Shown piece by piece: positions 1 to 25,679 of a stretch of DNA of 64,000 nt. The stretch is from positions 1-64,000 of the forward strand of contig NZ_BAABIA010000009.1 of the NCBI RefSeq assembly GCF_039542385.1. Reading direction: 5' to 3'. Both the position numbers and the translations under genes were made by a program. The notes below the pieces were generated by a model that was given only the letters and a program-made list of their open reading frames with translations, did no database searches and was not told the origin of the DNA. How positions within the stretch are numbered: the stretch's first letter is position 1; each line of letters starts with the position of its first letter. The stretch comes from Prosthecobacter algae. Lineage in GTDB: Bacteria > Verrucomicrobiota > Verrucomicrobiia > Verrucomicrobiales > Verrucomicrobiaceae.

Positions 1-2
1 AC

Positions 3-545
3 TTCAAGGAGGATGCGATCATCATGCTCGATGACGACATCAGTGCGTGCGTCTGCATGGTATCGCTCCGCTGCCGCAAGCTGTCCGTGGAGGAAACGCT
101 GCAAATGCTCAGCAACTCGGCCTACAACGCGCGTGGAGCCGGAGCACGTTTGTTTGGCTGGCATCAACGCAGTGATCCGCGCCTGCTGCAACGCAATGAT
201 CCCTTTGGCGTGAACCATTGGGTTGGAGGAGCGGTGGGTGTGGTGCGCGATGCTGAAGGTGGAGTGCCGGTTTGGGATGAACTACTCAAGTGCAAGTGCG
301 ACATCGACGCCTCGCTCCAGGAGCTTCTCGACAATCGCCTGGTGTGGAATGAAGCGCGGTTCTGCTTCGTGCAGGAGCGCGACAAGAACCTGGGCGGCAA
401 CTCGCTGTTCCGCAGTGCGGAGCGCATCGCCACTGAGAAGCGGCACCTCAAACGCAAGTGGAAGGCCCACATCGACTTCGGTGACTACAAGAGTCAGGAG
501 CGCGTCTCGATGAGCGCCCCACGCCGCCAAAGCATTGCCCTGTGA
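3..545 (+). CDS. Partial glycosyltransferase-like protein (TET-associated/GREB1-like?), 5' end outside window
   Basis: The reading frame is open to the left edge of the window, so the N terminus is missing; an internal ATG at 24 is unlikely to be the true start. About 180 residues are visible. The first visible segment is hydrophobic and runs straight into IIMLDDDIS, which resembles the DxD metal/nucleotide-sugar site of GT-A glycosyltransferases. Further on there is a GVNHWVGGAVG segment and a C-terminal stretch (GGNSLFRSAERIATEKRHL) whose GG...R...E...L spacing resembles phage glycosyltransferases linked to modified-base systems. That assignment comes from pattern memory and is uncertain. 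The next gene starts about 110 bp downstream behind the repeated upstream element. It could instead be another phage-type GT-A protein of unknown substrate. Confidence 0.5.
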   Translation, partial: FKEDAIIMLDDDISACVCMVSLRCRKLSVEETLQMLSNSAYNARGAGARLFGWHQRSDPRLLQRNDPFGVNHWVGGAVGVVRDAEGGVPVWDELLKCKCDIDASLQELLDNRLVWNEARFCFVQERDKNLGGNSLFRSAERIATEKRHLKRKWKAHIDFGDYKSQERVSMSAPRRQSIAL

Positions 546-603
546 CGACGCACCCCAAGGCACCTCCCAAACCCTGCGACCTAACCAAACCCCACGGCAT
601 CAT

Positions 604-648
604 TTGGTGATGCAAACGGATGGAACCCCGAAGCCACGGTGACGAGGG
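604..648 (+). promoter_or_regulatory. 45-bp repeated upstream element, degenerate copy A
   Basis: This is a diverged copy of the element seen at 1459, 2465 and 6680. It keeps the left box (TGGTGATGCAAACGG) and the right box (CACGGTGACGAGG) at exactly the same spacing, while the middle differs. It ends 8 bp before the ATG at 657, the same distance as copy D from its gene. Confidence 0.55.
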
Positions 649-656
649 CTTCCTCC

Positions 657-1241
657 ATGGACCTCCCAGATCTCTTTCCCGCCAACCCCATGCAACTGCG
701 CACGATTCGTCATTATAACTTCAGCGAGGTATCTTCTGCCATGCAGAAAGCCATCCGCCGTGGTGACGCGGCGTTGGCGGGTTACTGGGCGCTAGAACTG
801 TGGAGCAGCGGCTTTGGCAAGTATGTGTGGAAGCGCCTGCTCACCATCAGCGCAGAAGATTGCTGGGGTATCCTGACTCAGGAGGTTAAGGCGCTGCATG
901 ACAGCTACCTCGTCATCAACGACGGCATCCCGCCGAAGCAGGCCAAGGGCCGCATCTTCATCAGCAAGGCAGTCATCCTGCTGTGCCTGTCGAAGAAGAG
1001 CCGCGATCCCGATCATCTGCAAAATTTCGTCTATGACCAGACGGCGGGGCTTGATCCTGACACGCTTGCGCTGGAGTTGCGCAGCAGTGGTGAGTATGTC
1101 GCCATCCCTGAATATGCGTATGATTGCCACACGCGGGAGGGCAAGAAGCGCGGCAAGACCAAAGCGGACTTCTTCAAAGCGGAGCAGGCGGCACTGGAGC
1201 CGTTGCAGCCCGGCCTGTTTGATCATCTTATCGACGAGTGA
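657..1241 (+). CDS. RarA/MgsA C-terminal-domain-like protein
   Basis: A 194-residue protein. A GTG at 639 would extend it in frame, but ATG 657 directly follows the repeated element and gives a compact start. The middle (SSAMQKAIRRGD..., then WKRLLTISAEDCWG, then ISKAVILLCLSKKSRD) follows the helical pattern of the C-terminal domain of RarA/MgsA replication-associated AAA+ ATPases, in which a KS.RGSD..AA.YW...I..EDxG pattern precedes a QA..YLA..PKS segment. The C-terminal IPEYAYDCHTREGKKRG segment is typical of stand-alone relatives in mobile elements. There is no AAA+ domain in this gene, but a clamp-loader-like AAA+ protein is encoded at 4991. The family match is inferred by eye. Confidence 0.5.
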   Translation: MDLPDLFPANPMQLRTIRHYNFSEVSSAMQKAIRRGDAALAGYWALELWSSGFGKYVWKRLLTISAEDCWGILTQEVKALHDSYLVINDGIPPKQAKGRIFISKAVILLCLSKKSRDPDHLQNFVYDQTAGLDPDTLALELRSSGEYVAIPEYAYDCHTREGKKRGKTKADFFKAEQAALEPLQPGLFDHLIDE

Positions 1242-1458
1242 GTTTTCGCGAAGGTCGCATCAAGGCAGGCTGATAATCTCAACAAGTGCATGTGAGGCTG
1301 GGCCATACAGCCATACCTTGCGGAGCGGTCCCCATCGTAAAACGCTTCCTACGCGCCTTCACAAGGTCCTGCTGATGCGGGGTGTTGTTGGTTGGAACTG
1401 AGTGTCGTTCAAATGGTGCCAATCATGGATGGACAACGGTGTTCTGCGTCTCCGCCAC
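1242..1458. other. Intergenic stretch without a recognised gene
   Basis: Together with the 45-bp element and the short leader ORF that follow, this makes about 305 bases between the RarA-like gene and the DNA ligase gene. I see no convincing coding frame, RNA gene or terminator hairpin here. It probably holds the promoter for the ligase transcript. Confidence 0.5.
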
Positions 1459-1503
1459 ATGGTGATCAAATCGGTGCGACACACGCGGTCATGGTGACGA
1501 GGC
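1459..1503 (+). promoter_or_regulatory. 45-bp repeated upstream element, copy B
   Basis: This copy is nearly identical to those at 2465 and 6680. The left box is TGGTGATCAAATCGG, the middle GTGCGACACACG is shared, and the right box is ATGGTGACGAGGC. It lies 43 bp upstream of the ligase ATG. The GTG inside the right box opens a 20-codon leader ORF that ends on the ligase start. Confidence 0.75.
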
Positions 1504-1556
1504 CGGAGGGAACCCAGCCCAGCGCTGGTCAACAAGCCACTCCTCCATGTCCATGA
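1494..1556 (+). CDS. Possible 20-residue leader peptide upstream of DNA ligase
   Basis: The frame starts at the GTG of the repeated element and encodes MTRPEGTQPSAGQQATPPCP. Its TGA stop overlaps an ATG at 1553 (ATGA), which is the second in-frame Met of the ligase. This geometry would allow translational coupling. Nothing else supports its expression, so it may be accidental. Confidence 0.25.
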   Translation: MTRPEGTQPSAGQQATPPCP

Positions 1557-2452
1557 ACACTACCGCCTCATCACCCATCACCAAGCCCATGCTCGCCGAC
1601 AAGTGCGAGCGTCTCCATGCCCTCTCCTTCCCCCTGCTGGCCACGCCCAAGCTCGACGGTATCCGCTGTCTCAAGATCAATGGCCGCGCCCTGACACGCA
1701 GCTTCAAGCCGGTGTCCAATCGTTTCATCCGTGAGTGGATCGAAGCCAACCTGCCTGATGGGTTGGACGGCGAGTTGATCGTCAAAGGCACCACCTTCAA
1801 CGAAACCGCCGGGCATGTGGGCCGCGAGAGTGGTGAGCCTGACTTCACCTTCGCTGTCTTCGACTATGTGAGCGATGGCATCGACGTACCTTATGCCTGT
1901 CGGATGAAGGAACTGGCGCGGCTGCCTGATTACCTGCGCGTTGATAAAGTGCTGCCTGAGGAGATCCATTCACTCGATGACCTCATGGCCTATGAAGAGC
2001 GCTGCGTGAGTGAGGGTTATGAAGGTGTCATGATCCGCACGCCGGGCTCACCCTACAAGTGTGGCCGCTCCACGGAGCGCGAGGGCTATCTGCTAAAGAT
2101 CAAGCGCTTCGAGGACGCGGAGGCCGTGGTGCTCGACACCTATGAAGGCATGAGCAATCACAACGCGGCTGAGAAGGATGCGTTTGGCCGCACCAAGCGC
2201 AGCATGGCGCAGTCCGGCATGGTCGGGCGCGGCGAACTCGGCGGCTTTATCGTCAAGCTTGTGGAGACGGGCATCGAGTTCCGGCTGGGTTACAACCATG
2301 TCGTCGGCGGAGTGGATCGAGTATCCCTCTGGCAGCAGCGTTCCTCTTTGTTGGGCCGCATGGTGAAGTTCAAGCACCAACCCAGCGGCGCGAAGGAAGC
2401 GCCCAGGTTCCCGAAGTTCATCGGGTTCCGTGAGCAGTGGGACCTCTCATAA
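1547..2452 (+). CDS. ATP-dependent DNA ligase, phage type
   Basis: A 301-residue minimal ligase that would seal nicks using an enzyme-AMP intermediate. Motif I is KLDGIR, with the adenylated lysine at about residue 35. FAVFDYV (about 107) fits motif III, EGVMIR (about 160) motif IV and LLKIKRF (about 184) motif V. The C-terminal part, including GGVDRVSLW and MVKFKHQ, fits an OB-fold domain. The size matches T7-like and other mobile-element ligases and is much smaller than NAD-dependent LigA, the usual bacterial replicative ligase. The start may be ATG 1547 or ATG 1553; the latter would be coupled to the leader ORF. The gene probably belongs to the replication or repair functions of the element. 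Confidence 0.92.
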   Translation: MSMNTTASSPITKPMLADKCERLHALSFPLLATPKLDGIRCLKINGRALTRSFKPVSNRFIREWIEANLPDGLDGELIVKGTTFNETAGHVGRESGEPDFTFAVFDYVSDGIDVPYACRMKELARLPDYLRVDKVLPEEIHSLDDLMAYEERCVSEGYEGVMIRTPGSPYKCGRSTEREGYLLKIKRFEDAEAVVLDTYEGMSNHNAAEKDAFGRTKRSMAQSGMVGRGELGGFIVKLVETGIEFRLGYNHVVGGVDRVSLWQQRSSLLGRMVKFKHQPSGAKEAPRFPKFIGFREQWDLS

Positions 2453-2464
2453 GCGGTCTTTAAA

Positions 2465-2509
2465 ATGGTGATCAAAACGGTGCGACACACGCGACCACGG
2501 TGACGAGGC
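2465..2509 (+). promoter_or_regulatory. 45-bp repeated upstream element, copy C
   Basis: The left box is TGGTGATCAAAACGG, the middle is GTGCGACACACGCG and the right box is CACGGTGACGAGGC. It begins only 12 bp after the ligase stop codon and lies 47 bp upstream of the amidoligase ATG. The short distance argues for a promoter or RNA element that is separately useful for each gene. Confidence 0.75.
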
Positions 2510-2556
2510 CAAGGGGTGCCCTGCATGGGGCCAGCCACCCGCATCCATTCCTCCAC

Positions 2557-3519
2557 ATGAAACCTGCCGATCCCAAAGCCGCCCTCATCCAGTGGGGCAT
2601 CGAACTGGAAACCCGCCTTCCTGTCACCAGTCAGGTGTCAGTGGGCAGTTACCACGCCGGGTATCCGGTCACCACTGGCATCACCCTGGCCGGTGCTCGC
2701 AGCAATGCTCCAGCCTTCCATGCTGACACTTGGAAAGCCGAGCGCGATGGCTCCATCCGCTGCGACGCCGGGCAGATGCCCTGCGAATTTGTCTCACCCA
2801 TCCTCCATGGCGAGCATGGCGTGGATCATTTGATCGCCTTCGTTGAATGGCTCAACGCCCTCGGTGCTACGGTGGATCGCTCCTGCGGCTGCCACATCAC
2901 CGTGGGCATTGAGTCCATCATCGGCACTTCCGACACGAAAGCGGTGAGCGAGTTCATCCGCAAACTCGCCCACATTGCCCGCTGGCACGCTCGCAGCCTT
3001 TACGGCCAGACCGGGACGGACCGCCATCTCAACCACTACAGCCACCCGCTCTATGAGCAGACTGCCGACCACATGCGCAAGCTTGTCACCTGCGAGGAAG
3101 AGCGGGTCAAAGCCGAGTGCGCCGAGCAGTGCGGGCGCGGCATGGTGAACTTTAGAAAAGCGTTCAAGCGTGATCGCAACGGACGCTTCGTCGGGGTGGT
3201 GGAGTTCCGCGTCTTTGCCGGCACGCTGAACATCGAAAAGATACTGCATCACCTCGCCAGTGTGCTTGGCCTGTGTCGCCGCGCCCACGAGGTCCAATGC
3301 CTCGGCGGGTTCGGCAAGAACAAGATCCAAGCCAAGCGCACTGCCACGGCTTCTGATGGCCTGAGATTCCTCTGGGACTACCTCGGGTGGACCGGCAGTG
3401 CGCGTCCTGTCGCCCTCGGCCTCTTCGGCAAGCTGCACTCGGAGTTCCGCCACTACCGCAAGAGCGCGCAGCGGCTCTGCCAGCAGTTCGATAGCCGCTA
3501 CCCCGACGCGAACCTCTAA
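2557..3519 (+). CDS. Amidoligase_2-family enzyme (COOH-NH2 ligase)
   Basis: A 320-residue protein, predicted to form amide bonds between a carboxylate and an amine using ATP, on a glutamine-synthetase-like catalytic fold. The motifs are GIELE near the N terminus (about 14-18), DGSIRCDAGQMPCEFVSPI, CGCHITVG (about 109) and VEFRVFAGTLN (about 217), in the order expected for the phage and prokaryotic amidoligase family. ATG 2557 is chosen because GIELE then sits close to the N terminus; an in-frame GTG at 2500 lies inside the repeated element. The next gene is a class II glutamine amidotransferase, which could supply ammonia. The substrate is unknown and may be a peptide, a protein or a modified nucleotide. 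Confidence 0.78.
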   Translation: MKPADPKAALIQWGIELETRLPVTSQVSVGSYHAGYPVTTGITLAGARSNAPAFHADTWKAERDGSIRCDAGQMPCEFVSPILHGEHGVDHLIAFVEWLNALGATVDRSCGCHITVGIESIIGTSDTKAVSEFIRKLAHIARWHARSLYGQTGTDRHLNHYSHPLYEQTADHMRKLVTCEEERVKAECAEQCGRGMVNFRKAFKRDRNGRFVGVVEFRVFAGTLNIEKILHHLASVLGLCRRAHEVQCLGGFGKNKIQAKRTATASDGLRFLWDYLGWTGSARPVALGLFGKLHSEFRHYRKSAQRLCQQFDSRYPDANL

Positions 3520-3597
3520 GCCTTTGCCCAAGTTATACGCAGTCTGCGGATAGCCGGGCCAAACCCAAGAACAACGAACCCAAGAAACGAACCTGAT

Positions 3598-4230
3598 ATG
3601 TGTGTGATCCTGATTTGTCCTGAAACTGTGCGCCCGAAGCCCGAGGTGGTGTATGCCTGTCATGAAGCCAACCCGCACGGCGCGGGCGTGGCATGGCGGG
3701 AAGGTGGCCGCGTGCGCTGGCAGAAGAACCTCAGCACTGGCGAACTCGTGACCTTGCTCAAGAAGCTGGAGGGCGAAGTGGTCATCCACTTCCGCTGGGC
3801 CAGTGTGGGCGGGGTGGATGGACGGCTGTGTCATCCATTCCCCATCACTCCGAAGGCCAGCGTGAGCCTCTCGGGCATGGCCGGGAGCGTGCTGTTCCAC
3901 AACGGCACTTGGAGCGGGTATGTGGATGCCCTGATGCGGCTGGAGCAGCATCGCAAGGAGCCGCTGCCGGCCTCTCCGATGAGCGACACCCGAGCGGCGG
4001 CTCTCGTGGTCCACACCACCGGCCCTGAGGCGCTGCACAAGCTGCCAGGGCGCTGGGTGTGGATGAATGCGCAGGAGACGCGGCTCTACGGAGCTTGGGA
4101 GGAGTGGCGGGGGATGCAGGTGAGCAACACGCACTTCGTCCCGCGCCTGCGCGCCGCCCAGTCCCGGCGTCACCACGCCAAGACCACCGATCACCGCCCC
4201 CTGGGCCAGTCCTGCCTTTTTGCCTGCTAA
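3598..4230 (+). CDS. Class II glutamine amidotransferase-like (Ntn hydrolase)
   Basis: A 210-residue protein starting Met-Cys, so removal of Met would expose Cys as the nucleophile used by class II glutaminase domains. ANPHGAGVAW, a WASVGGVDGRLCHPFPI segment and LFHNGTW match the GAT-II pattern of a central arginine/histidine region and a HNGxW glutamine-binding motif. In place of the usual R-x-A-T-x-G segment the protein has FRWASVGG. It probably releases ammonia for the neighbouring amidoligase. The start is preceded directly by the AACCTGATA leader seen before two other genes here, with no Shine-Dalgarno sequence. The C-terminal 35 residues are basic and look disordered. Confidence 0.75.
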   Translation: MCVILICPETVRPKPEVVYACHEANPHGAGVAWREGGRVRWQKNLSTGELVTLLKKLEGEVVIHFRWASVGGVDGRLCHPFPITPKASVSLSGMAGSVLFHNGTWSGYVDALMRLEQHRKEPLPASPMSDTRAAALVVHTTGPEALHKLPGRWVWMNAQETRLYGAWEEWRGMQVSNTHFVPRLRAAQSRRHHAKTTDHRPLGQSCLFAC

Positions 4231-4256
4231 CCCAAACTCAAACCTGATAACCCGAT

Positions 4257-4841
4257 ATGAAACTCTTCAAACTGATCGCCAGCCGAGCTGGCCAAGTGTT
4301 GTTCGATGACCGTGTGGAGGCCGACTCCCCGCGCGAAGCGCGTGAACAGATGAAAGCCCTGATGGGGCTCAACTCACTGACCGGGGTGGTGTATGCCATC
4401 ACGGAAATCCCCGTGGACCTCATTCAGAGCATCGTGGATGCGCGACTCGTCGAAGCCCTGCAACGTCTCAACGGTGGGCAAGCACCGGCCACGGTGGAGC
4501 AGATGCTCCGACCCATCGCCAGCGAAGCAGTCAGAGAACAACTCGCCAGCTTGCGCACCGTGCAGGCGGCAGAGGCTGCGCCACCACCCGCGCCGCAGCG
4601 GTTCGATGCCTTTGCCGGTGGAGCGGTGGCTGAACAGATCATTGGACAACCTGCCGCTGTCACGCCCAAGCCCGGGCGCAAGCGCACTAGCGTGACCACC
4701 GATGGCACTGTGGTGGATTGGAAGGCGGTGAAGCGGGTTTACCGCCGCACGGGTTCCATCAAGCAGACCGCCGCGCAGTTTAAGCTTTCGATTAACTCCG
4801 TGAAAGCACGCATCCGTCGGGAGGGCTGGACCCATGAGTGA
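4257..4841 (+). CDS. Hypothetical protein with C-terminal helix-turn-helix
   Basis: A 194-residue protein. Residues 1-85 form a compact alpha/beta-looking region, followed by a Pro/Ala-rich linker (about 100-145) and a C-terminal DNA-binding-like segment. That last segment (VKRVYRRTGSIKQTAAQFKL, then SINSVKARIRREGW) has the spacing of a homeodomain-like HTH as in transposases and phage regulators. The leader contains AACCTGATA 8 bp before the ATG. The stop overlaps the next small gene by 8 bp (ATGAGTGA), so the two are probably co-translated. The role is unknown, possibly a regulator of this cluster. Confidence 0.7.
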   Translation: MKLFKLIASRAGQVLFDDRVEADSPREAREQMKALMGLNSLTGVVYAITEIPVDLIQSIVDARLVEALQRLNGGQAPATVEQMLRPIASEAVREQLASLRTVQAAEAAPPPAPQRFDAFAGGAVAEQIIGQPAAVTPKPGRKRTSVTTDGTVVDWKAVKRVYRRTGSIKQTAAQFKLSINSVKARIRREGWTHE

Positions 4842-5010
4842 TCGGCTCACCATCACCAAGTATGGCACGCGCTACTGGGCCGTGTGGATCGACGGGCAGT
4901 TGCTCGCCGTCACGCTCTACAAGAAGGGCGCACGGTCGGTGGCCTCCGCGATTACGACGCTTTCCACGACTCATGGAAAGGAGGTCCATCATGGCATCCA
5001 AGGCGCGTGA
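4834..5010 (+). CDS. Small conserved mobile-element protein (58 aa)
   Basis: This encodes a 58-residue protein beginning MSDRLTITKYGTRYWAVWID and continuing LLAVTLYKKGARSV. The two beta-strand-like segments followed by YKKGA resemble short proteins found widely in phages and integrative elements. The gene starts inside the preceding gene and its 3' end overlaps the AAA+ ATPase start by 20 bp, a typical compact operon arrangement. Function unknown. Confidence 0.65.
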   Translation: MSDRLTITKYGTRYWAVWIDGQLLAVTLYKKGARSVASAITTLSTTHGKEVHHGIQGA

Positions 5011-5647
5011 ACGTGTTCTCAAACAAGCTCCGTTCTCCCCGATGAACTGGCGACCGCGCATAGCGGAGGATTTGATCGGCCAGGCCAAGCGTGTGGCGAT
5101 GGCGCAGGGGAGCAAGGCGAAGCGGCTCTCCAGTGATCCTTCGGCCACCATGAAGCTCCTGCTCTACGGTCCACCCGGTGTGGGCAAGACGAGCGTGGTG
5201 GAATTGGTGGCCTTGCAACTCGCTGGCACGCCTCTGTCCATTGAGGACTACAACGGGCGTGAGGTGACGGTGGATCTCGTGCGCGATTGGATGCGCCAGC
5301 TTCCTTATGGCAGCCTGTTCAGTTCATGGTCGGTCAAGATCGTTAATGAGCTGGATCGATGTTCCCGTGAAGCGCAGGACTTGTTGCTCACCTACCTGGA
5401 CCGATTGCCACCGGGCCGGGCGTTCCTCGGCACGAGCAACCTGCAGCTCGATCTGCTCACCGAGCGGTTCCAGACGCGGTTCCAGGCCATCAAGCTGCTG
5501 CCACCGACCACGGAGGAGCTGGCGGCGTTCCTGAGCGCTCATTGGGCTGTGCCATCTGTCACCGCCACGCAGATCGCCGTGGGCAGTGGTGGCTGTGTGC
5601 GGGCCGCCCTCGCCGATCTCGAATCCTATCTCGACCAGCAACCCTAA
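4991..5647 (+). CDS. AAA+ ATPase, clamp-loader/RarA-like
   Basis: A 218-residue protein. The start is ATG 4991, which has a good ribosome binding site (AAGGAGG about 8 bp upstream) inside the 58-aa gene; the frame extends further upstream without meaning. The Walker A motif GPPGVGKT lies at about 60-67. The Walker B position reads VKIVNELDR, with Glu-Leu-Asp where a DE pair is common. Sensor 1 is FLGTSN, followed by RFQTRFQAIKLLPPT, which fits an arginine-finger region. The architecture resembles clamp-loader small subunits or the N-terminal part of RarA/MgsA. A C-terminal RarA-like domain is encoded separately at 657-1241. Confidence 0.8.
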   Translation: MASKARERVLKQAPFSPMNWRPRIAEDLIGQAKRVAMAQGSKAKRLSSDPSATMKLLLYGPPGVGKTSVVELVALQLAGTPLSIEDYNGREVTVDLVRDWMRQLPYGSLFSSWSVKIVNELDRCSREAQDLLLTYLDRLPPGRAFLGTSNLQLDLLTERFQTRFQAIKLLPPTTEELAAFLSAHWAVPSVTATQIAVGSGGCVRAALADLESYLDQQP

Positions 5648-5674
5648 CCCCCGAACAAACCTACGCAACGCACC

Positions 5675-6082
5675 ATGAACAACATCCAGAGAATGATTGA
5701 ACGACACGGCGGCTTTGAAGCCGTGAAAACGGATTACCTGCGCCTTGAGAACCCGCCGTTCATGCGGCTGGTGATCGAGGTGATCGGCGGGCCGTATCCG
5801 AACCTCGCGTATGAGGTGAGCGTGGCGCACTATGGGGAGCAGAATGGCGATGCCATGCGTGATCCCGAGATCACTTTCCTGGTGGTGCCTTCAGCCGAGG
5901 GCACGACATGGACACCACTCACGTTCGAGAACAGCTACCTGGGGGCTTGGCAGGTCGTGGCCACAGTGACACCGCAGGGCTTTGTGAATGTGAAGGATGC
6001 GGCGCAGTTACGTGACCTGACAGACTTCGCCAGCCAGTGGGATCGTAATCTCAAGGCGCAGGGATTTTGCAAGCAGGAATGA
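5675..6082 (+). CDS. Hypothetical protein, DUF6908-like
   Basis: A 135-residue protein with an N-terminal helix, a beta-rich middle and the segment EQNGDAMRDPEITFLVVP, which resembles the conserved QxGDxMRDPExxF signature of a family found in integrative elements. The end is helical (LTDFASQWDRNLKAQGF). It follows the AAA+ gene by 27 bp and probably shares its transcript. The biochemical role of the family is not known to me. Confidence 0.65.
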   Translation: MNNIQRMIERHGGFEAVKTDYLRLENPPFMRLVIEVIGGPYPNLAYEVSVAHYGEQNGDAMRDPEITFLVVPSAEGTTWTPLTFENSYLGAWQVVATVTPQGFVNVKDAAQLRDLTDFASQWDRNLKAQGFCKQE

Positions 6083-6110
6083 TTGCTGGGGCAGACAGGT
6101 TGGAGTGCGC

Positions 6111-6662
6111 CTAACAAAGGTGCATCACCTCGATACAGCTAAGAAGATGACCCGCTGGACATGCGAGGCGGTCATGGATCGATCCTATGACCTCGCGTCC
6201 AGGTGGCACCACCAGCTCACCCGGCGAATAGAGGTGGCGGCAGGCGTGGTACCACACCTCAAAGTGTCCGGGTTCGATGACTCCCTTCAGGATAATAATC
6301 TCAATTCCTCTCCAGGCCGGAGGCAGCATGGTTGTCGCCTCGGCATCCCGATCTCTGCCACGAAGCCAGTCGAACAAGTCATGATCCAAAGTCGTCACTC
6401 GGCCATCGACGGCGTTGATCTTCAAATGTTCGTAAACCGCACGAGACAGATGCACCGTTTCAAAACAAAAGGTGCCAAACAAGTTGTCCTGCCCAGGCCA
6501 GAGCATCTGCTGGTAGGCGAGCCTTTGCGTGCATCGGGGCAGCTCGCCGACACTGAACTCCCGAAACTTGTCGGCCTGGCCTGTCTTGACCCAGTGTGGG
6601 ATGATCCGGAACATGGTGGAAGAGCATTGCGCTTTTGCGTCCGTGGCAAAGCCTTTTTTCAT
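6111..6662 (-). CDS. Hypothetical protein (183 aa) on opposite strand
   Basis: An isolated leftward gene between two rightward groups. The protein has the composition of a folded domain (FRIIPHWVKTGQADKFREF, FGTFCFETVHLSRAVYEHL, RGIEIIILKGVIEPGHFEVW) and ends in a Cys-containing helix. A + strand frame over the same bases is less protein-like, with runs of basic and Ser residues, so I favour the - strand. The start may be ATG 6662 or the Met about 16 codons later (MFRIIPHW). I do not recognise a family. Its 5' end lies 18 bp from repeated element copy D, pointing the other way. Confidence 0.5.
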   Translation of the reverse strand: MKKGFATDAKAQCSSTMFRIIPHWVKTGQADKFREFSVGELPRCTQRLAYQQMLWPGQDNLFGTFCFETVHLSRAVYEHLKINAVDGRVTTLDHDLFDWLRGRDRDAEATTMLPPAWRGIEIIILKGVIEPGHFEVWYHACRHLYSPGELVVPPGREVIGSIHDRLACPAGHLLSCIEVMHLC

Positions 6663-6679
6663 CCAGTGATGATTGGAAA

Positions 6680-6724
6680 ATGGTGATCAAAACGGTGCGA
6701 CATACGAAGGCATGGTGACGAGGC
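6680..6724 (+). promoter_or_regulatory. 45-bp repeated upstream element, copy D
   Basis: The left box is TGGTGATCAAAACGG, the middle is GTGCGACATACGAAGG and the right box is CATGGTGACGAGGC. It ends 8 bp before the ATG at 6733, and those 8 bp (AGGAGGGC) form a strong Shine-Dalgarno sequence. Confidence 0.75.
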
Positions 6725-6732
6725 AGGAGGGC

Positions 6733-6984
6733 ATGAGCACGCCCCTCAACAAGTATCACACCCTGCTGTTCATCAACGGGTCACAGGTCGGTGACAATGC
6801 CACGTTTGCTGACTGGTTTGCCAGTGATGCAGACGCCATCGCCGGCGCACGCGGCTACTTCACCGCCGAAGGCTACCACGTCGAGTCTGTGACCGTCAGT
6901 CATGGCGAGGTGCTTCCGGCCAACCGCTTCACCCCCGCCTTGCATGGCCTGATGCTCACCGTGCGACTGACCACGCAGGCCTGA
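6733..6984 (+). CDS. Small hypothetical protein (83 aa)
   Basis: ATG 6733 is preceded by AGGAGG, a clear ribosome binding site; an upstream in-frame TTG at 6673 would translate through the repeated element and is rejected. The protein has a beta-alpha-beta look (YHTLLFINGSQVGD, ADAIAGARGYFTAEGY, VESVTVSHGEV, LMLTVRLTTQA). It is similar in style to small accessory proteins of phages and ICEs. Function unknown. Confidence 0.6.
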   Translation: MSTPLNKYHTLLFINGSQVGDNATFADWFASDADAIAGARGYFTAEGYHVESVTVSHGEVLPANRFTPALHGLMLTVRLTTQA

Positions 6985-6990
6985 CCTCCC

Positions 6991-7050
6991 ATGCCTTCCG
7001 ACGACCTCTTTGCCTGGATGGCGCTGACCGGCCTGCTGATCCTCACATGA
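6991..7050 (+). CDS. Very short hydrophobic ORF (19 aa), doubtful
   Basis: Six bases after the preceding stop, an ATG opens MPSDDLFAWMALTGLLILT, a short peptide with a hydrophobic C terminus. No Shine-Dalgarno sequence is visible. It could be a membrane microprotein or simply chance. Confidence 0.25.
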   Translation: MPSDDLFAWMALTGLLILT

Positions 7051-7104
7051 ATCATCCGCCACCTGCGGACCCCTAAAACCGAACCTAAACCTGATACCAC
7101 GACC

Positions 7105-14612: not shown

Positions 14613-17600
14613 TGTGTTCATCCTCCCAAACGTGAAGCACCCGACCTCGATCAGAGACATGTTTGCGGAAGCGACTTAGCACTTCAGCACCCTCGTCCGT
14701 GCCATAACGATGGTCTGTAAGCGACTCGATGTCTCCCACCAAAATCAGCATTCGCTTCGCCCTTGAGAAGGCAACATTCAGACGACGTAGATCATGCACC
14801 CAACGGAGCCCTGGCCCTTCCCAGCCCCGGCCTCTGCATGGCCCACAGCGTTGGCCGTGTGAGATTCCTTTTCCTCTGCACCTTTTACATTGCGTCGGAC
14901 TCCGAACAAATGATGCAATCATGACATCCCGCTCTGAGCCTTGAAAACTGTCCACTGAAGCAATGTCATTTTTTTCCAAAGTGACATGGCTGCCCGAAGC
15001 GAAGAACTCACTGAGTTTCTGCTCCATCAGGACTTTCTGTGCAGCGTAAGGCGTGACTACGCCGAAAGTGACAGCCTCACCAAGACTCTGTCTGGCCTGC
15101 TTGAGAATACGCCGCGTTAAGTCCACTTCGAGTGGGTTTTGAATACTTGTCGAGTCGTCATTGGGCGTCTCCTCGTGCCGATCTTGATAGGCCGAGGTCG
15201 AAACTAGGCAAACAGCCTTCGTGAACTCACCGAAGGCCAAATGGCGAGCCTCTGCCGTTACGCCGTTCTCAAGGCCACCATCGTCTTGGTAAAAGACATG
15301 CCCGATGAAATCAGCAATGTCAGGGTGCATCCTGAATTGGCGATTCAGCACCACCCTAGGAACCGAAGGTCGTGTTTCGGTCAGCCATTCAAAGGCGCTG
15401 CGTTCTAGCCAGCACGAGGACATCGACGGTTTGAACGACTGACTCGATGAGGGCAGGCGTGTCACGTCATGACACCGTGCGGAGCATGAATTCTCGCACT
15501 GCCGTCCGAGCTCCATCGGTGGGGCCGGAGGCAACTGCATCTCGTCGCCAATCAGAATGGCACGCTTGGCTCGGGACAGAGGAATCAAAGTCTGGGCCAG
15601 AGTCGCGTGAGCCGCTTCGTCTACAATCACCATGTCCACGCCCTCCTTGCCGTAATACTCGTGGAATGCCCTCCATGATGCCAGGCCGACACAGGTGCTC
15701 AGAAAGACCTGTGTCGTGTTCCAAAAGAGTCCGGTGAGCTCTTGCGAAGACGTTTCGGCGGCCTGTTGCCAACGCTCGCAAAAAGCTGCCTTCTCTTCAT
15801 TCCGCCTGATGGCGTGGATCAGTTCGCTGATCCGGTCGTTCCACACTGGCGGCGGGTTGTCCCATGTGATGGGCGCAAATTCCCCAGCCGCATTCCATGC
15901 CTGGGCGGCACGCTCCTGGGGCGGCAAATGTTCAGACTCTGCCAGCTCCCGCTCATGCTTCAGATCCTGCAAACGCCCGCGCAACGATTGTTGCGCTGCT
16001 TCAAGGACCATGTTGCTCGCTGACTGCACTTCTTGAATGGCGGTGGATGCATGGCAGCGGCACTCTTGAAGGTTCCTCTCATGTTCCGCGAAGGAGCACT
16101 CATATTGCGCAATCTGCCGCCTCGCCGCCTGCTCGTCCGCGATGGCGCGCGAGAAGCGCTGCTGCAACAACGCAGCTGTTGCGAACATGTTTGGCACCAG
16201 GGACGAAAGGTCAAACCATCTGCCCGGTTCGGCCCCGCTGTGTTCAGGCGCAGCGCCGGTCTTCTTCAGGTAGGCACCCGCCGCATCATCACCTCTTTCT
16301 GCCGCAGCGCGCCAGTCTGCCTGGGCTTTGAGCAGTGCACGACCGTCGGCGGCGGCTTCAACCTCGATACGTGCGAGCTCGCTGTCTCTGTTCGATTCCA
16401 AGGTCGTTGTCTGATCCGCTCGCTGGCGCTCAGCTGTCTCCCTCGTCCGTTCGAACTCCTCCTGTGCCTCTTGCGTGAGGCATTCAATCTCGTGACGCCT
16501 CGCCGCCAGGATGACAGCTCCAGCATGGGCGGATTCCAGCATTTTGGGCAGGGGAGCGAGCCTGCCTCGGAGATCGTGACAGGCCTGCACTTGTGCGGCA
16601 GCCCGCTCACGCACCCGGGCCAGAAAGCCCTGCTTTGTGCCGCCTTCGAGGTAAGCTCTCTCCAAGTCGGTGAGGCGTGGATTGTCAGGGCGGGCATGGC
16701 GCACCATGCGGAGTGAGCCATCGCGATGAAGCCGCTCAAGAACATTCGCAACGGCCTGATGTGTCTCACTGCAGATCAAGACTTTCTGCTTCCTCGGGAT
16801 CGCCTGCCGCACGGCCTCGGTGATCACCGTGGTCTTGCCCGTCCCTGGCGGTCCCTTCACCAAAACCAGCGGCGCGTCCGACATCATCCAGTTCAAGGCG
16901 GCCTGCTGCCTCGGGTTTCCGCTAAGGGCCGGATCAGATGCGACGACATCCAGCGCAGTCACCGGTCTGCCGGGTGCATTTTTCGTGAAGGCTGAGATCA
17001 GATCAGGCGCTTCATCAGGTATGCACCAGCGAGCCAGCTCCTTCAACTGGGCCAGTTCAGGGGGAGGGATCAGATAGGGGGACACCCACACGCATTCCGG
17101 CACGTCGGCCACCACGATATCAGCGGGAAAACTGATCAAAAAGCAGGGCGATCTCGCGGAGCAGTCGAGGCCGGCAAAGAGCGGATCCACAGGTTTCCCG
17201 AACGGATCTGGAGACTGGCGCCTGATCTGCACTTCGCTGCCGCGTTCATCATAGGCCAGCCGGAGGGGGGTGGACACAGCGAACGGCTCCGTGCCTCCCC
17301 GCGCCCAAGCGGGCGGCTTGATGATGGGAAACCTCAAGATCACCCGTTTCCGCATTCGTGCGGTCGTGGCCTCTGGCGCACCGAGTTGAACCGCACGGAA
17401 GTCCAGCAATTCACGCGCTACACCGCCCGCCTCCATCGCCATCTCTAGACATACACCGAGCCCTGCGATTTCGTGTTGAACTGCCACGACTGCGGCACGC
17501 GCCGCCGAATCTTCATCCGCTTTGCGCAGCAGGACATGGAGCAGTTTCCTGGCATTCTGAGAAAGCGCATAGTCAGCACCAGCGACACCGTCCCAGGCAG

Positions 17601-18612
17601 CCACCTTTTCATGGGGGATGTCATCATCGCGCCAAAAATAGCACCCGGTGGCTGAATTGAATCCCACATGAACAACACCTTCTCCCAAACATTCACGACA
17701 GCTCTTTGATCCAGAACCTTCGCAGGCATTGCAGGTTAGGATCGGAGGCTTGCCGCTTCCCTTGCATACATAGCATGTTTGTCGGCCAGCTCCCTCGCAG
17801 ACATTGCAATCTAGTCGTCCACTACCGGAACAAGTCCTGCAATCTCCCATGCGATCCCCCTTTCTCCCAATGAAATCACCGCTTCCGTTACAGCGCCGGC
17901 AGCAAACGTGCCCGCAGCTGCCACATTTCGAGCAAGCAACGGTGCGGGAACTTCCACACTTCTTGCACACACCCTCGGGCTGCCATGTCCCGTGCCCCTC
18001 GCACTTCCTGCACACCACCTCTCCAGAGCCGCAACATCCAGTGCAGACCACTCCCAGTTTCACATCCCCCTCTGCCAGCCGGCGGAGGGTCCATGATTGA
18101 GCATCACCTTCTTTCTTCGTTCCGGCAGGTGGGCGTTGGGCCAACAACGGCAAGGGTAGCAATGAGTTGGCCCAGACTTCCACCCCCACGAAGACGTCCT
18201 TCCCAGGCAGAATATCCGCGAGGATCGTGATGAAGTCCGTTGAAACCGCCAGCATCGGGTGGTCCTCCCAAGTAGTCTTTCCCGGCGCCCCCGCTTCGGC
18301 CGGCGATGCCTGGGCAGACATGCCGTAAACGCGGTCAATCCGCACAATGCCTTGCAAAGACTCAGGTGCCTCCCCGCCGGAGAAGCGAACGACAACTTCC
18401 CCGGCATGACAGTTCTTTCCCCGGCGAACGGGCATAAGCATGACTCCCTCTCTGGGTCGCCGAATTCGCACTGGCCAGACCGCGAGACGCGAAGGTTTTA
18501 TGATAAGTTCGTCAACCCCGGCGGTCATCTCAACCCCGAGTGCTCGCAAGGCTGGCAGGACCTTTTCCGCCAGACGCTTGTCAAAATAGAATGGCAGCAG
18601 AAGATCCGGCAA
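14605..18612 (-). CDS. Giant SF1 (UPF1/DNA2-like) helicase with DnaJ-type zinc-finger array
   Basis: About 1335 residues from a proposed TTG start at 18612; ATG 18528 is the main alternative. Starts further out would run into the oppositely transcribed gene at 18676. After a unique N terminus of about 170 residues comes a dense array of CxxCxGxG-type zinc motifs, with at least ten CxxC pairs. Then follow Walker A GPPGTGKTT, a long coiled-coil insertion rich in Glu/Arg/Gln, Walker B VIVDEAAHA, ILIGDEMQLPP, and the late motifs DSFQGSERDV and LNVAFSRAKR. A further two-CxxC zinc motif is inserted between these last two. It probably unwinds DNA or RNA-DNA for the PLD nuclease encoded downstream. 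Confidence 0.85.
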   Translation of the reverse strand: MPDLLLPFYFDKRLAEKVLPALRALGVEMTAGVDELIIKPSRLAVWPVRIRRPREGVMLMPVRRGKNCHAGEVVVRFSGGEAPESLQGIVRIDRVYGMSAQASPAEAGAPGKTTWEDHPMLAVSTDFITILADILPGKDVFVGVEVWANSLLPLPLLAQRPPAGTKKEGDAQSWTLRRLAEGDVKLGVVCTGCCGSGEVVCRKCEGHGTWQPEGVCKKCGSSRTVACSKCGSCGHVCCRRCNGSGDFIGRKGDRMGDCRTCSGSGRLDCNVCEGAGRQTCYVCKGSGKPPILTCNACEGSGSKSCRECLGEGVVHVGFNSATGCYFWRDDDIPHEKVAAWDGVAGADYALSQNARKLLHVLLRKADEDSAARAAVVAVQHEIAGLGVCLEMAMEAGGVARELLDFRAVQLGAPEATTARMRKRVILRFPIIKPPAWARGGTEPFAVSTPLRLAYDERGSEVQIRRQSPDPFGKPVDPLFAGLDCSARSPCFLISFPADIVVADVPECVWVSPYLIPPPELAQLKELARWCIPDEAPDLISAFTKNAPGRPVTALDVVASDPALSGNPRQQAALNWMMSDAPLVLVKGPPGTGKTTVITEAVRQAIPRKQKVLICSETHQAVANVLERLHRDGSLRMVRHARPDNPRLTDLERAYLEGGTKQGFLARVRERAAAQVQACHDLRGRLAPLPKMLESAHAGAVILAARRHEIECLTQEAQEEFERTRETAERQRADQTTTLESNRDSELARIEVEAAADGRALLKAQADWRAAAERGDDAAGAYLKKTGAAPEHSGAEPGRWFDLSSLVPNMFATAALLQQRFSRAIADEQAARRQIAQYECSFAEHERNLQECRCHASTAIQEVQSASNMVLEAAQQSLRGRLQDLKHERELAESEHLPPQERAAQAWNAAGEFAPITWDNPPPVWNDRISELIHAIRRNEEKAAFCERWQQAAETSSQELTGLFWNTTQVFLSTCVGLASWRAFHEYYGKEGVDMVIVDEAAHATLAQTLIPLSRAKRAILIGDEMQLPPAPPMELGRQCENSCSARCHDVTRLPSSSQSFKPSMSSCWLERSAFEWLTETRPSVPRVVLNRQFRMHPDIADFIGHVFYQDDGGLENGVTAEARHLAFGEFTKAVCLVSTSAYQDRHEETPNDDSTSIQNPLEVDLTRRILKQARQSLGEAVTFGVVTPYAAQKVLMEQKLSEFFASGSHVTLEKNDIASVDSFQGSERDVMIASFVRSPTQCKRCRGKGISHGQRCGPCRGRGWEGPGLRWVHDLRRLNVAFSRAKRMLILVGDIESLTDHRYGTDEGAEVLSRFRKHVSDRGRVLHVWEDEHNG

Positions 18613-18641
18613 AGTAGAGTGAGTTGGAATTGACGAAGCTG

Positions 18642-18663
18642 GCAGACCGCTTGAACGGTCTGC
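18642..18663. promoter_or_regulatory. Perfect inverted repeat in divergent promoter
   Basis: The arms GCAGACCG and CGGTCTGC are separated by 6 bp (CTTGAA) in the roughly 63-bp gap between the leftward helicase operon and the rightward four-gene operon. There is no T-tract, so an operator for a shared regulator is more likely than a terminator. Confidence 0.55.
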
Positions 18664-18675
18664 ACCTCTACATAG

Positions 18676-19155
18676 ATGTCCCCAGTAGGCAAAATTTCCG
18701 CAGCATTCGCCCAAGAAATTCAGCAAGCGCTGATGGCGGGCACCTTGCGGTCGCCGGAGCCAGAACTGCACTCCGCCTTTGGCAGCGTTTATTTCGGGCC
18801 TCTTGCACCGTTTGCCCAAGGGCTTCCGCACTACGGAATGGTTCGGGCTCCAAAAGAGGGAGGGAAGCACCTCGGCGTCATGCGCTTCTCGCCCGTCACC
18901 TCAAAAACGCCTTCAGCAAGGTGGGAACGTGAGACTTCTCTAGCGATGCCAAAAGGGACGCCGCTGAGTCGGGACCGGAATTCGGAGAGTTTGCAAAAGG
19001 ACTCTTGGCTTCTGCTGGGGCTGGGGCCAATCCCGGTCCCAAGGCAAACTCTCAAGTCTCAGATCACCCGGCACGAGAGTCATTACGTGGGACTGCTGCC
19101 CGAGGAGTGGATTCAGAAAGCCCGTGAACGGCTCAATCCCAAGCCGACCCCATGA
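18676..19155 (+). CDS. Unrecognised protein, first gene of Lon-like peptidase operon (MazF/PemK-like?)
   Basis: A 159-residue protein. Its stop overlaps the next ATG (ATGA at 19152), which supports it as real. The first half has YFGPLAPFAQGLPHYGMV, and the second half ends QKDSWLLLGLGPIPVPRQTL, then HYVGLLPEEWIQKARERL. The LxKDSW...L......VGxL order vaguely resembles the C-terminal strands of MazF/PemK-type toxins, but this is a weak guess. It is divergent from the helicase operon, sharing the palindromic promoter region. Confidence 0.55.
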   Translation: MSPVGKISAAFAQEIQQALMAGTLRSPEPELHSAFGSVYFGPLAPFAQGLPHYGMVRAPKEGGKHLGVMRFSPVTSKTPSARWERETSLAMPKGTPLSRDRNSESLQKDSWLLLGLGPIPVPRQTLKSQITRHESHYVGLLPEEWIQKARERLNPKPTP

Positions 19156-20237
19156 ACACCTTTGATGCTGTTAGCGGATCCGACCTTCCCACAGCCATTG
19201 AGGTGTGGATGGGCCGTGAGGACGCAGGTGCTGACCATGACCGTCTGATCGGCGGGCTGTTTGCAGTATGTGTGAACCTCGCCAACGAACTGCGGGAAGA
19301 CAGCCCGACCAGGCCTGGCATGGATGCGATGGATCTGGCTCACGAGTTCCTAGTGGCCGCCCGCCACGAAGGCCTGGGAGGCATCGAGAAAAAGGCCGGC
19401 CTGCGCACGGCATTTCGCCGCCACGTATGGCGCTCGCAGAATCCAGCGTCTGACGAACTCTGGGAAACCCTGAGTGAAAGTCTTCGGGAGCTAGCGCGGC
19501 AGGGGCACGCTTGCCGAGTGGGTGCCAACTGGTCTGCTCCCAATAGCAATGATGCGCAGTGGGCAGCGGGTCCGGCCACGGGGGTTCCTCAAGCCACCGA
19601 CATGGTGGTGTTTGAAGAGTGCGCGGAGAAACTCAGACACTACTATCCGCCTGGAGCGCTGGGTGCGGCAGGTAAAAAGGTGCCAAAAATCATTTCTCCC
19701 ACGGATGCCCGGGAGCTGGCCGCGTCTCTTCTCGATTGCGCCCCCGGCTGGGTAACCATGCGCGAACTCTTCGCAGCTTTCCGAAAACATGTTCATCTTT
19801 TGAGTGTGGATGTATCCATTGACGATGGGAACAACCCCGGCTTTCTGAATGAGGAAGACCGCCGGCATCCTGACACGGAACTGAAACTGCTGGAGCTGGC
19901 TCGCGCCAGAGCCGGCACACTCTGGGAAACTCTCCGTCAGAAGACACTGTGTGAGGTGCTCTGCGGTTATGTTCTCCCCAAAGTGCTGGAAGGGAAGAAA
20001 GTGACGCTTGAGGCCCTCGGCAAACACTCGGTGGTGTTCGACAAAAAGGAAAAGATCATGCGACTTCTTGCCGAGGAACTGCGTCCTGAAGCGTTCGCGG
20101 AGGATGAAGCCGTGACGGCGCATCATTCGTGGCATGCGGTATTCGTGGCTTTGGTTGCTTCCGAACTGGCAGCCCGCTGTGACGAATGCACCGGAAAACG
20201 TGAGAATTCCAGCCTTCCTTCCCCTGTGACGATATGA
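19152..20237 (+). CDS. Unrecognised mostly helical protein (361 aa)
   Basis: The start overlaps the previous stop and the stop overlaps the next start (4 bp each). The composition is helical and charged. Residues 35-120 (LIGGLFAVCVNLANELRED, MDAMDLAHEFLVAARHEGL, GLRTAFRRHVWRS, WETLSESLRELARQG) have a spacing faintly reminiscent of a sigma-factor-like helical bundle, but no region 2 or 4 signature is clear. Residues 285-320 (VTLEALGKHSVVFDKKEKIM) could form an HTH. I do not assign a function. The position suggests a regulator or core component of the module. Confidence 0.6.
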   Translation: MNTFDAVSGSDLPTAIEVWMGREDAGADHDRLIGGLFAVCVNLANELREDSPTRPGMDAMDLAHEFLVAARHEGLGGIEKKAGLRTAFRRHVWRSQNPASDELWETLSESLRELARQGHACRVGANWSAPNSNDAQWAAGPATGVPQATDMVVFEECAEKLRHYYPPGALGAAGKKVPKIISPTDARELAASLLDCAPGWVTMRELFAAFRKHVHLLSVDVSIDDGNNPGFLNEEDRRHPDTELKLLELARARAGTLWETLRQKTLCEVLCGYVLPKVLEGKKVTLEALGKHSVVFDKKEKIMRLLAEELRPEAFAEDEAVTAHHSWHAVFVALVASELAARCDECTGKRENSSLPSPVTI

Positions 20238-25104: not shown

Positions 25105-25679
25105 GGATTCACGCGGAGATGATGGATGCGGGCCTTGCGGTAGCTCTCGCGGGCGAGCAGTGAGCGCATGGCACGGCTGGGTTTCAGATTGAGGGATTGA
25201 GTCAACTCGACGCAGCGTTTGGAGACGGCCGCGCGGGTCACATTGTGGCGCTTGGCGATCTCGGTCATCGAGTCGCCATCGTAAGCAAGCCCGGTGACGA
25301 GGGCGAGACAGTCGAGCGAGAGGCGGGCGTTGCTCTGGCTGACCATCTCGCCCACCAGGCGGCGCAGGAGATCGTGCAGGCCTTCAGTGTCCGCAGGCTG
25401 CGGATGGTGTGAACATGGCTCGATGAGGGATGATTCCTCAGGCTCTTCAAAGCTATCCTCGCAGCGGGCGCGGGAGGATTCAGCGGCGTCCTTGGTGGCA
25501 CCGCCGGAGCCGGAGGGAAGGTAGGCTTTGTCCAAGCCCATCTCCTTGACCTTCCGTCGCTCCTCGGGTGGCAGGGAGGTGATCCACTCCTGATATTCCC
25601 GGCGGTAATCATCGTCCATGTCGCGCTGGCGACTCTGGTAGGAGCTTGGCGGCAGTTCTTCATCTTCATCGAAGTTCAT
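25101..25679 (-). CDS. Helix-turn-helix regulator with sigma-region-4-like C terminus
   Basis: 192 residues from ATG 25679. The first 95 residues are acidic and low-complexity. The C-terminal 100 residues contain ARLSLDCLALVTGLAYDGDS, MTEIAKRHNVTRAAVSKRCV and ELTQSLNLKPSRAMRS, a sigma-70 region 4/Xre-like HTH (I-A-K-R-x-N-V-T-R-A-A-V-S-K). It lies 13 bp after the polymerase gene and overlaps the LmbU-like gene. It is probably a DNA-binding protein of the element and may act with the LmbU-like protein. Confidence 0.7.
   Translation of the reverse strand: MNFDEDEELPPSSYQSRQRDMDDDYRREYQEWITSLPPEERRKVKEMGLDKAYLPSGSGGATKDAAESSRARCEDSFEEPEESSLIEPCSHHPQPADTEGLHDLLRRLVGEMVSQSNARLSLDCLALVTGLAYDGDSMTEIAKRHNVTRAAVSKRCVELTQSLNLKPSRAMRSLLARESYRKARIHHLRVNP

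Follow-up and report, generated by a model that had tools for sequence, protein, structure and literature searches.

The window analyzed here is a stretch of 64,000 nucleotides (64 kb) at the start of contig NZ_BAABIA010000009.1 (C9) of Prosthecobacter algae, and its first 7 kb contain four copies of a directional element that we tentatively read as a control site tied to the gene starts of Verrucomicrobiota prophages. All copies lie on the + strand, with 43-bp cores at 605-647, 1460-1502, 2466-2508 and 6681-6723, and the conserved unit comprises 47 nt (AAATGGTGATCAAAACGGTGCGACA, 8 variable nt and CACGGTGACGAGGC). The first unit (602-648, type 1, of the CGGATGGA subtype) precedes gene A (657-1241, + strand), which encodes a phrog_16866 protein, weakly MgsA_C-like (below the Pfam cut-off) and related to the "AAA-ATPase" of Microbacterium cluster EC phages; its GAGG at 644-647 is the likely Shine-Dalgarno sequence of that gene, 9 nt from the ATG. 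The other three units are of type 2. One of them (1457-1503) stands before the ATP-dependent DNA ligase gene (1547-2452, + strand). The next (2463-2509) has its first base 10 nt past the ligase stop codon (2450-2452) and is followed by a spacer (2510-2556, + strand) that may form an RNA hairpin (GGUGCCC-UGCAU-GGGGCC, including mismatches and with compensatory changes relative to related loci), and by the amidoligase gene (2557-3519, + strand). The last (6678-6724) precedes the gene of an 83-amino-acid (83-aa) protein (6733-6984, + strand), the start codon of which is 9 nt past the GAGG of the element. Counted from the 43-bp cores of copies 2 and 3, the start codons (1547 and 2557) are 44 and 48 nt downstream. 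The original prediction had described four + strand copies at these places with equal spacing of the boxes, and this was confirmed: the distance from the GGTGA of box 1 to the GGTGA of box 3 is 32 nt in all four. With the 45-bp limits used there, the ends of two copies do lie 8 bp upstream of an ATG (at 657 and 6733). Directly 5' of the second full element, a degenerate half-element (AAATGGTG..GGATGGACAACGG, 1411-1456, + strand) was recognized by eye, and it has no match to the sequence model (see below) in the window.

Within the window, TGGTGATCAAAACGG at up to 3 mismatches was matched six times versus 1.68 expected, the four copies having 0, 0, 1 and 2 mismatches. Two further matches on the minus strand, at 31349 and 32490, each carry 3 mismatches, and a two-box match is absent there. 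Specificity is lower for the second box by itself, with 48 matches to CGGTGACGAGG at up to 2 mismatches versus 24.8 expected; a solitary exact CGGTGACGAGG at 25292-25302, without the first box, is probably due to chance. The genome-wide motif search that had been proposed found the two-box pattern seven times in the 6.12-Mb genome, while the reversed pattern, used as a control, was found zero times. Copies scattered at random positions within genes, which had been named as the observation that would speak against the prediction, were not encountered. A sequence model was also built on 52 aligned copies (alignment A1), which were cut in fixed register, their gaplessness thus being a product of selection. 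The model gave eight matches in the host genome, four on C9 and four on contig C4, and all eight copies are within two related prophage segments. The C4 segment is ~90% identical to positions 1-5645 of the window, and a single base, 604 nt ahead of the first 43-bp core, marks both the start of C9 and the end of C4 (end of locus L008). Based on this identity and the shared break point, C9 and C4 carry two related copies of one segment. The near-identical prophage sequence at both contig ends apparently stems from two related prophages that the assembly could not separate.

The region belongs to a prophage, since ParB-like, terminase large and small subunit and portal genes precede the same array in the relative L290, an integrase gene lies just before the array in L286, and the element occurs in IMG/VR contigs, where the strict pattern matches 15 stretches. 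Structural genes were not seen in the window, which covers only one prophage end. The array also encodes a GATase-like protein, the helix-turn-helix (HTH)-bearing protein X (gene X, 4257-4841, + strand), two AAA ATPases and a DUF6908 protein. The amidoligase gene adjoins the GATase-like gene (2557-4230 for both, the latter below the Pfam cut-off), forming an enzyme pair within the prophage. Between the DUF6908 gene and the fourth element, an open reading frame (ORF) of 183 aa on the minus strand (6111-6662) has no Pfam match and may be an insertion. In L286, a DNA polymerase III alpha-like gene adjoins the array on the opposite strand (16463-19486, minus strand).

Regarding its spread, the element was identified with the model (E < 1e-3) in 19 of the 68 genomes of the host family, and four further genomes match at E values of 0.006-0.009, which may be chance. 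Order-wide, it was found at E ≤ 0.001 in 26 of 386 genomes, seven of which belong to a second family; one of these, G183, has a single weak partial match (E 6.9e-4) and was left out when the regions of the other six were fetched. In this second host family the element accompanies the same genes, albeit with changes in its sequence and in which of them carry it. The host genomes are fragmented. In a limited search of the open literature, no description of a comparable Verrucomicrobiota element was found, subscription journals being mostly outside the coverage.

A score on the full unit was required for a locus to be retained; the matches listed by broad two-box scans of genome and viral collections looked mostly like chance and were left out of the counts. 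The fetched loci yielded a copy table of 109 rows, reduced to 106 after removal of duplicates. In 101 of these, a recognized prophage gene on the same strand could be assigned to the copy, none being in the opposite direction (0/101), and in 96 of the 106 its start codon is 7-80 nt downstream. For the other five assigned copies, the recognized gene is more distant or rearranged, and among the five copies without an assigned gene two are cut by contig ends, two are degenerate and one is unassigned. The genes that follow are gene A (25 copies), amidoligase (24), ligase (17), the MSK gene (14), the 83-aa gene (7) and AAA2 (7), as well as, more rarely, gene X (4), RadC (2) and DUF6908 (1). In L033 (at 809) and L352 (at 4976), the element is located 8 nt before a small unassigned gene (ATGTCCAAG..) that lies ahead of AAA2. 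At L290 (12662-13228) and similar loci, the DUF6908 frame continues through the element, which thus becomes its C-terminal tail (..YGDQNGATTAVTVTRP..); in the window, the DUF6908 gene stops earlier.

Two subtypes could be distinguished, CGGATGGA for gene A, the first gene, and CGGYGCGAC or close variants for at least eight other genes. GATGGA is present in all 25 gene A copies and lacking in 79 of the 81 others, both exceptions being cut by contig ends just past the element. The first copy in the window (core from 605) had been regarded as degenerate; instead of being decayed, it represents this conserved subtype, with the same gene downstream in other prophages. Across 84 distinct elements, the columns G6, G18, G22 and A23 are invariant (84/84); AAATGG, AACGG, CACGG and GAGGC are largely conserved, and columns 27-31 and 33 are nearly free. 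The claimed fixed spacing holds for the copies in fixed register, but not for L285 (distance from box 1 to box 2 reduced by 1 nt), L279 and L280 (distance from box 2 to box 3 reduced by 1 nt) or L348 (middle lost), and its exactness is partly selected, given that the copies were mostly gathered in that register. In some ligase and amidoligase leaders (L277, L286, L355), half-elements consisting of the 5' part only precede the full element, and the half-sites of L277, L355 and the L286 region are matched by the model.

The leaders fall into two groups. In the short-leader group (gene A, 83-aa and RadC), GAGG is found 7-10 nt before the ATG in 34 of 34 copies, including L289, where gene A itself is rearranged. 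The 16S rRNA tail of the host ends in GGATCACCTCCTT, so that GAGG can act as a Shine-Dalgarno sequence here. In the long-leader group (ligase, amidoligase, MSK, AAA2, X and DUF6908), most start codons follow at a distance of 26-80 nt (19 nt in one deleted copy), and many of the spacers contain a hairpin. Among seven amidoligase leaders (alignment A3), three of seven pairs have changed on both sides; the covariation score was reached by 0 of 500 shuffles, and the number of two-sided pairs by 72 of 500. For six MSK leaders (alignment A2), one of seven pairs has changed on both sides and the score was reached in 43 of 500 shuffles. Inside the element, RNAalifold on the 52 copies predicted two pairs (-0.14 kcal/mol) and no conserved fold, and single-sequence folds vary between copies. 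Visual inspection of some second-family copies suggested a GGYGC/GCRCC pairing, which other copies disrupt; it was discarded. Searching Rfam gave zero matches at the gathering threshold in the window, and for positions 400-7100 only a chance-level match to a long non-coding RNA (E 0.87); a known Rfam RNA family was therefore ruled out, as no curated covariance model matched.

In the host, the element is confined to prophage segments, is directed toward the gene and occupies the interval between a phage gene start and whatever precedes it, a gene or a gap. Together with its occurrence before a whole set of genes, this indicates that the earlier suggestion of a regulon operator or start signal named the right class, namely an element-specific, directional signal tied to gene starts and common to a gene set. 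Our preferred reading, which we hold to be slightly less likely than not, is that the element is a phage-specific, start-associated cis-regulatory site of Verrucomicrobiota prophages, i.e., of temperate phages, and that it is probably bound by a phage protein, an interpretation drawn from sequence comparison. In such a scheme, a phage-coded protein would bind the directional double-stranded site and would either hold the genes down in the prophage or switch them jointly at induction, as at stoperator or operator sites. A candidate binder is the product of gene X, of which 21 distinct versions were found in the fetched loci, including the one of the window; its predicted structure has helices at residues 155-189 forming a C-terminal three-helix HTH (predicted local distance difference test score 86-92). 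A DNA site is favored because 47 nt of primary sequence are conserved without a fold and many copies are far from start codons, features that a ribosome-binding site alone would hardly explain. The preference for DNA over RNA binding is a judgment, not a result, and both levels might act jointly.

Several points weigh against this interpretation. The collection of copies relied on patterns and a model from the window's own lineage, and the copies share descent; the counts are thus non-independent. In the short-leader copies, the GAGG fits a role in translation as well or better (34/34), and the compensatory hairpins, as far as the alignments go, show the leader beside the element to be under RNA-level constraint. 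Moreover, the predicted fold of protein X has no match in PDB at E < 0.001 and its Pfam HTH match is under the curated cut-off; its assignment as the trans-acting factor is therefore a guess. The 84 distinct natural variants and the gene-specific subtype constitute a mutational record from which the recognized bases can be read, and this makes it testable what binds, at the DNA or the RNA level, and when.

The strongest rival is an RNA-level role, in which the element would be a translation element, either ribosome-recruiting or a protein-bound mRNA leader ending in a Shine-Dalgarno sequence, as suggested for the start-associated sequences (SAS) of mycobacteriophages. We regard it as possible, if on the whole unlikely. 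Besides the GAGG position and the hairpins described above, it would account for the GGTGATC box, which matches the complement of the GGATCACCTCCTT tail, and for the intercistronic placement of the element, 10 nt past the ligase stop in the window and, in L290, overlapping with the last part of the DUF6908 frame. In addition, the type 1 GGATGGA could pair at 4-7 of its 7 positions with the nucleotides just before the ATG in 12 variants, versus a mean of 3.3 in 23 other gene starts. However, GGTGATC is present in only 37 of the 84 distinct elements, second-family copies often having GGCG or another variant, and the element has no internal fold. The distance of 26-80 nt (19 nt in the deleted copy) in six gene groups also implies that it is not directly the ribosome-binding site of the long-leader genes. 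Translation enters differently in the possibility of a 12-codon leader peptide (ATG/TTG-GTG-ATC-AAA-ACG-GTG-CGA-...-CGG-TGA) whose synthesis would control the downstream gene. The full ORF occurs in 62 of the 84 distinct elements, frame 1 reads MVIKTVRxxxxR followed by a stop in most close relatives, and the frame would explain the constant length. Yet 22 of the 84 lack it (12 without a stop by codon 15, 6 with an earlier in-frame stop and 7 without a start, in overlapping classes), and conservation at third codon positions is no lower than at the first two (mean 1.31 bits versus 1.10 and 1.16). As second-family copies lose the ATG or TGA with other bases kept, or have an early stop, the peptide was dropped as a general explanation, and we hold it to be extremely unlikely.

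The homology breakpoints between loci bear on two further explanations. When the same gene has different upstream contexts, homology often starts at the 5' edge of the element, with 41 of 67 element breakpoints within 5 nt of its first base, as if this were the 5' end of a transcription unit. This would suit a phage-specific promoter read by a sigma factor or polymerase of its own, and a sigma factor gene as well as a repeated intergenic motif are present in Microbacterium cluster EC phages, which have relatives of gene A (PMC7302621). A -10/-35-like pair was not found, however; the expected -10 position, 17 bp after box 1, falls in the poorly conserved middle, G+C content is high in the 3' box, and copies that lie 10 nt past a preceding stop codon, or that are translated as the C-terminal part of the preceding gene, would not need a promoter. 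The element-specific promoter that had been proposed is not supported in its ordinary sense, with sigma-70 signals lacking near the copies: a scan for -35/-10 hexamers at 16-18 nt spacing in 8.5 kb of the window gave a single site (8441), away from the copies, with 2.3 expected, and a TATAAT-like hexamer within 60 nt upstream was found in 2 of 84 contexts versus 8.7 in shuffles. A sigma-70 promoter was ruled out on these two counts, and a phage-specific one appears improbable. The same breakpoints could mean that the element serves primarily as a recombination joint, a cassette-like boundary between phage gene modules. They fall at elements in 67 of 505 cases versus 14 expected at random positions (maximum 24 in 500 trials). 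Counted per site, there are 0.66 per element versus 0.32 per element-free gene start. Within one genome, L286 has the order RadC-element-ligase-element-amidoligase and L285 the order RadC-element-amidoligase, the L285 element being a hybrid with a ligase-type 5' part and an amidoligase-type 3' flank; other junctions are ligase-element-MSK (L308) and DUF6908-element-83-aa (L281). Still, element-free gene starts attract breakpoints too, leaving only an approximately twofold excess particular to the element, and a conserved stretch with divergent flanks ends alignments anyway. For the junctions, ordinary recombination between repeats suffices, as reported for cluster O phages (PMC4351075). Inversion of the arms is lacking, and copies within one prophage differ in their central region, which speaks against an integron attC-like or integrase site. 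A primary role as a joint is very improbable in our view.

A broader proposal, which we regard as rather doubtful, is that the element is a standard 5' connector, a 47-nt unit that would provide any gene downstream of it with control and, in part, with a ribosome-binding site, and would also serve as a joint for the swap, loss or gain of genes. If true, a single step would suffice for new genes to join the control circuit of the phage. The element also illustrates how control sites present in multiple copies may double as joints in mosaic evolution.

Directional repeats at phage gene starts are known from quite different bacteria, and the element discussed here is a longer version in another phylum; in the actinobacterial phage papers, the portions available leave the function of such repeats unexplained (PMC3203893, PMC7302621). 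The SAS of cluster K mycobacteriophages is a 13-bp sequence, GGGATAGGAGCCC, accompanied in about half of the cases by upstream 17-bp inverted repeats (extended SAS, ESAS; Pope 2011, PMC3203893). Like our element, SAS/ESAS is asymmetric, occurs in many copies, mostly in one orientation and just upstream of start codons, is found ahead of a gene family in only some of the phages, and combines a Shine-Dalgarno core with conserved bases unable to pair with 16S rRNA (PMC3203893). Of these features, the single orientation was seen in our data, the immediate position and the core within the repeat (GAGG) were found in the short-leader copies (34/34), and the immediate position was not found in the long-leader group. 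Unlike SAS, the element is 47 nt long, unrelated in sequence, has two gene-specific subtypes and, in many of its copies, is separated from the start codon by 26-80 nt. The consensus GGGATAGGAGCCC does not occur in the 52-copy alignment, and inverted repeats of the ESAS kind are lacking as well: this alignment has no consensus fold, and the upstream flanks differ among contexts in the groups compared.

Cluster A stoperators are likewise asymmetric and repeated in short intergenic spaces, with an orientation that tracks transcription, but they are 13-bp sites bound by the phage immunity repressor, of known two-domain structure, and occur also as an operator at the early promoter (PMC9283540); in these prophages, gene X is no more than a candidate for such a repressor. 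An asymmetric, transcription-oriented, intergenic site in a temperate phage is also what we observed, with an integrase gene near the array in L286. SAS/ESAS, stoperators and the cluster EC motif resemble the element in direction, repetition and location at or between genes, and the two compared at the sequence level, SAS and the cluster EC motif, share no sequence with it. The 17-bp repeats of cluster O phages are similarly phage-wide, with deletions explained by recombination between copies, whereas they are dyad-symmetric, loosely linked to start sites and without meaningful orientation (PMC4351075). The 18-bp motif of Microbacterium cluster EC phages is directional as well, with 12 copies 21-30 bp before start codons, although it is shorter and its phages, of Actinobacteria, are described as lytic (PMC7302621). 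In sequence, the motif (TAGaCTATaGGTgTaAgC, as in the paper's text) has no significant local similarity to either subtype (shuffle p 0.41-0.91). A ParB - glycosyltransferase - ATPase neighborhood is common, across phyla, to cluster EC phages and these prophages (L290, 6283-7059; L271, 3330-4070; window, 657-1241), with the glycosyltransferase-like protein weakly matching TET-associated glycosyltransferase in Pfam. Among phage records, 64 match gene A and 75 its glycosyltransferase-like neighbor; in each case, 56 are from Microbacterium phages. In phage Jayden, the cluster EC motif (17 of 18 bases) ends 28 nt before the start codon of gp86, a relative of gene A. Related phages thus keep a start-associated repeat of another sequence at the same gene, which suggests that function rather than letters was held between cluster EC phages and the prophages described here.

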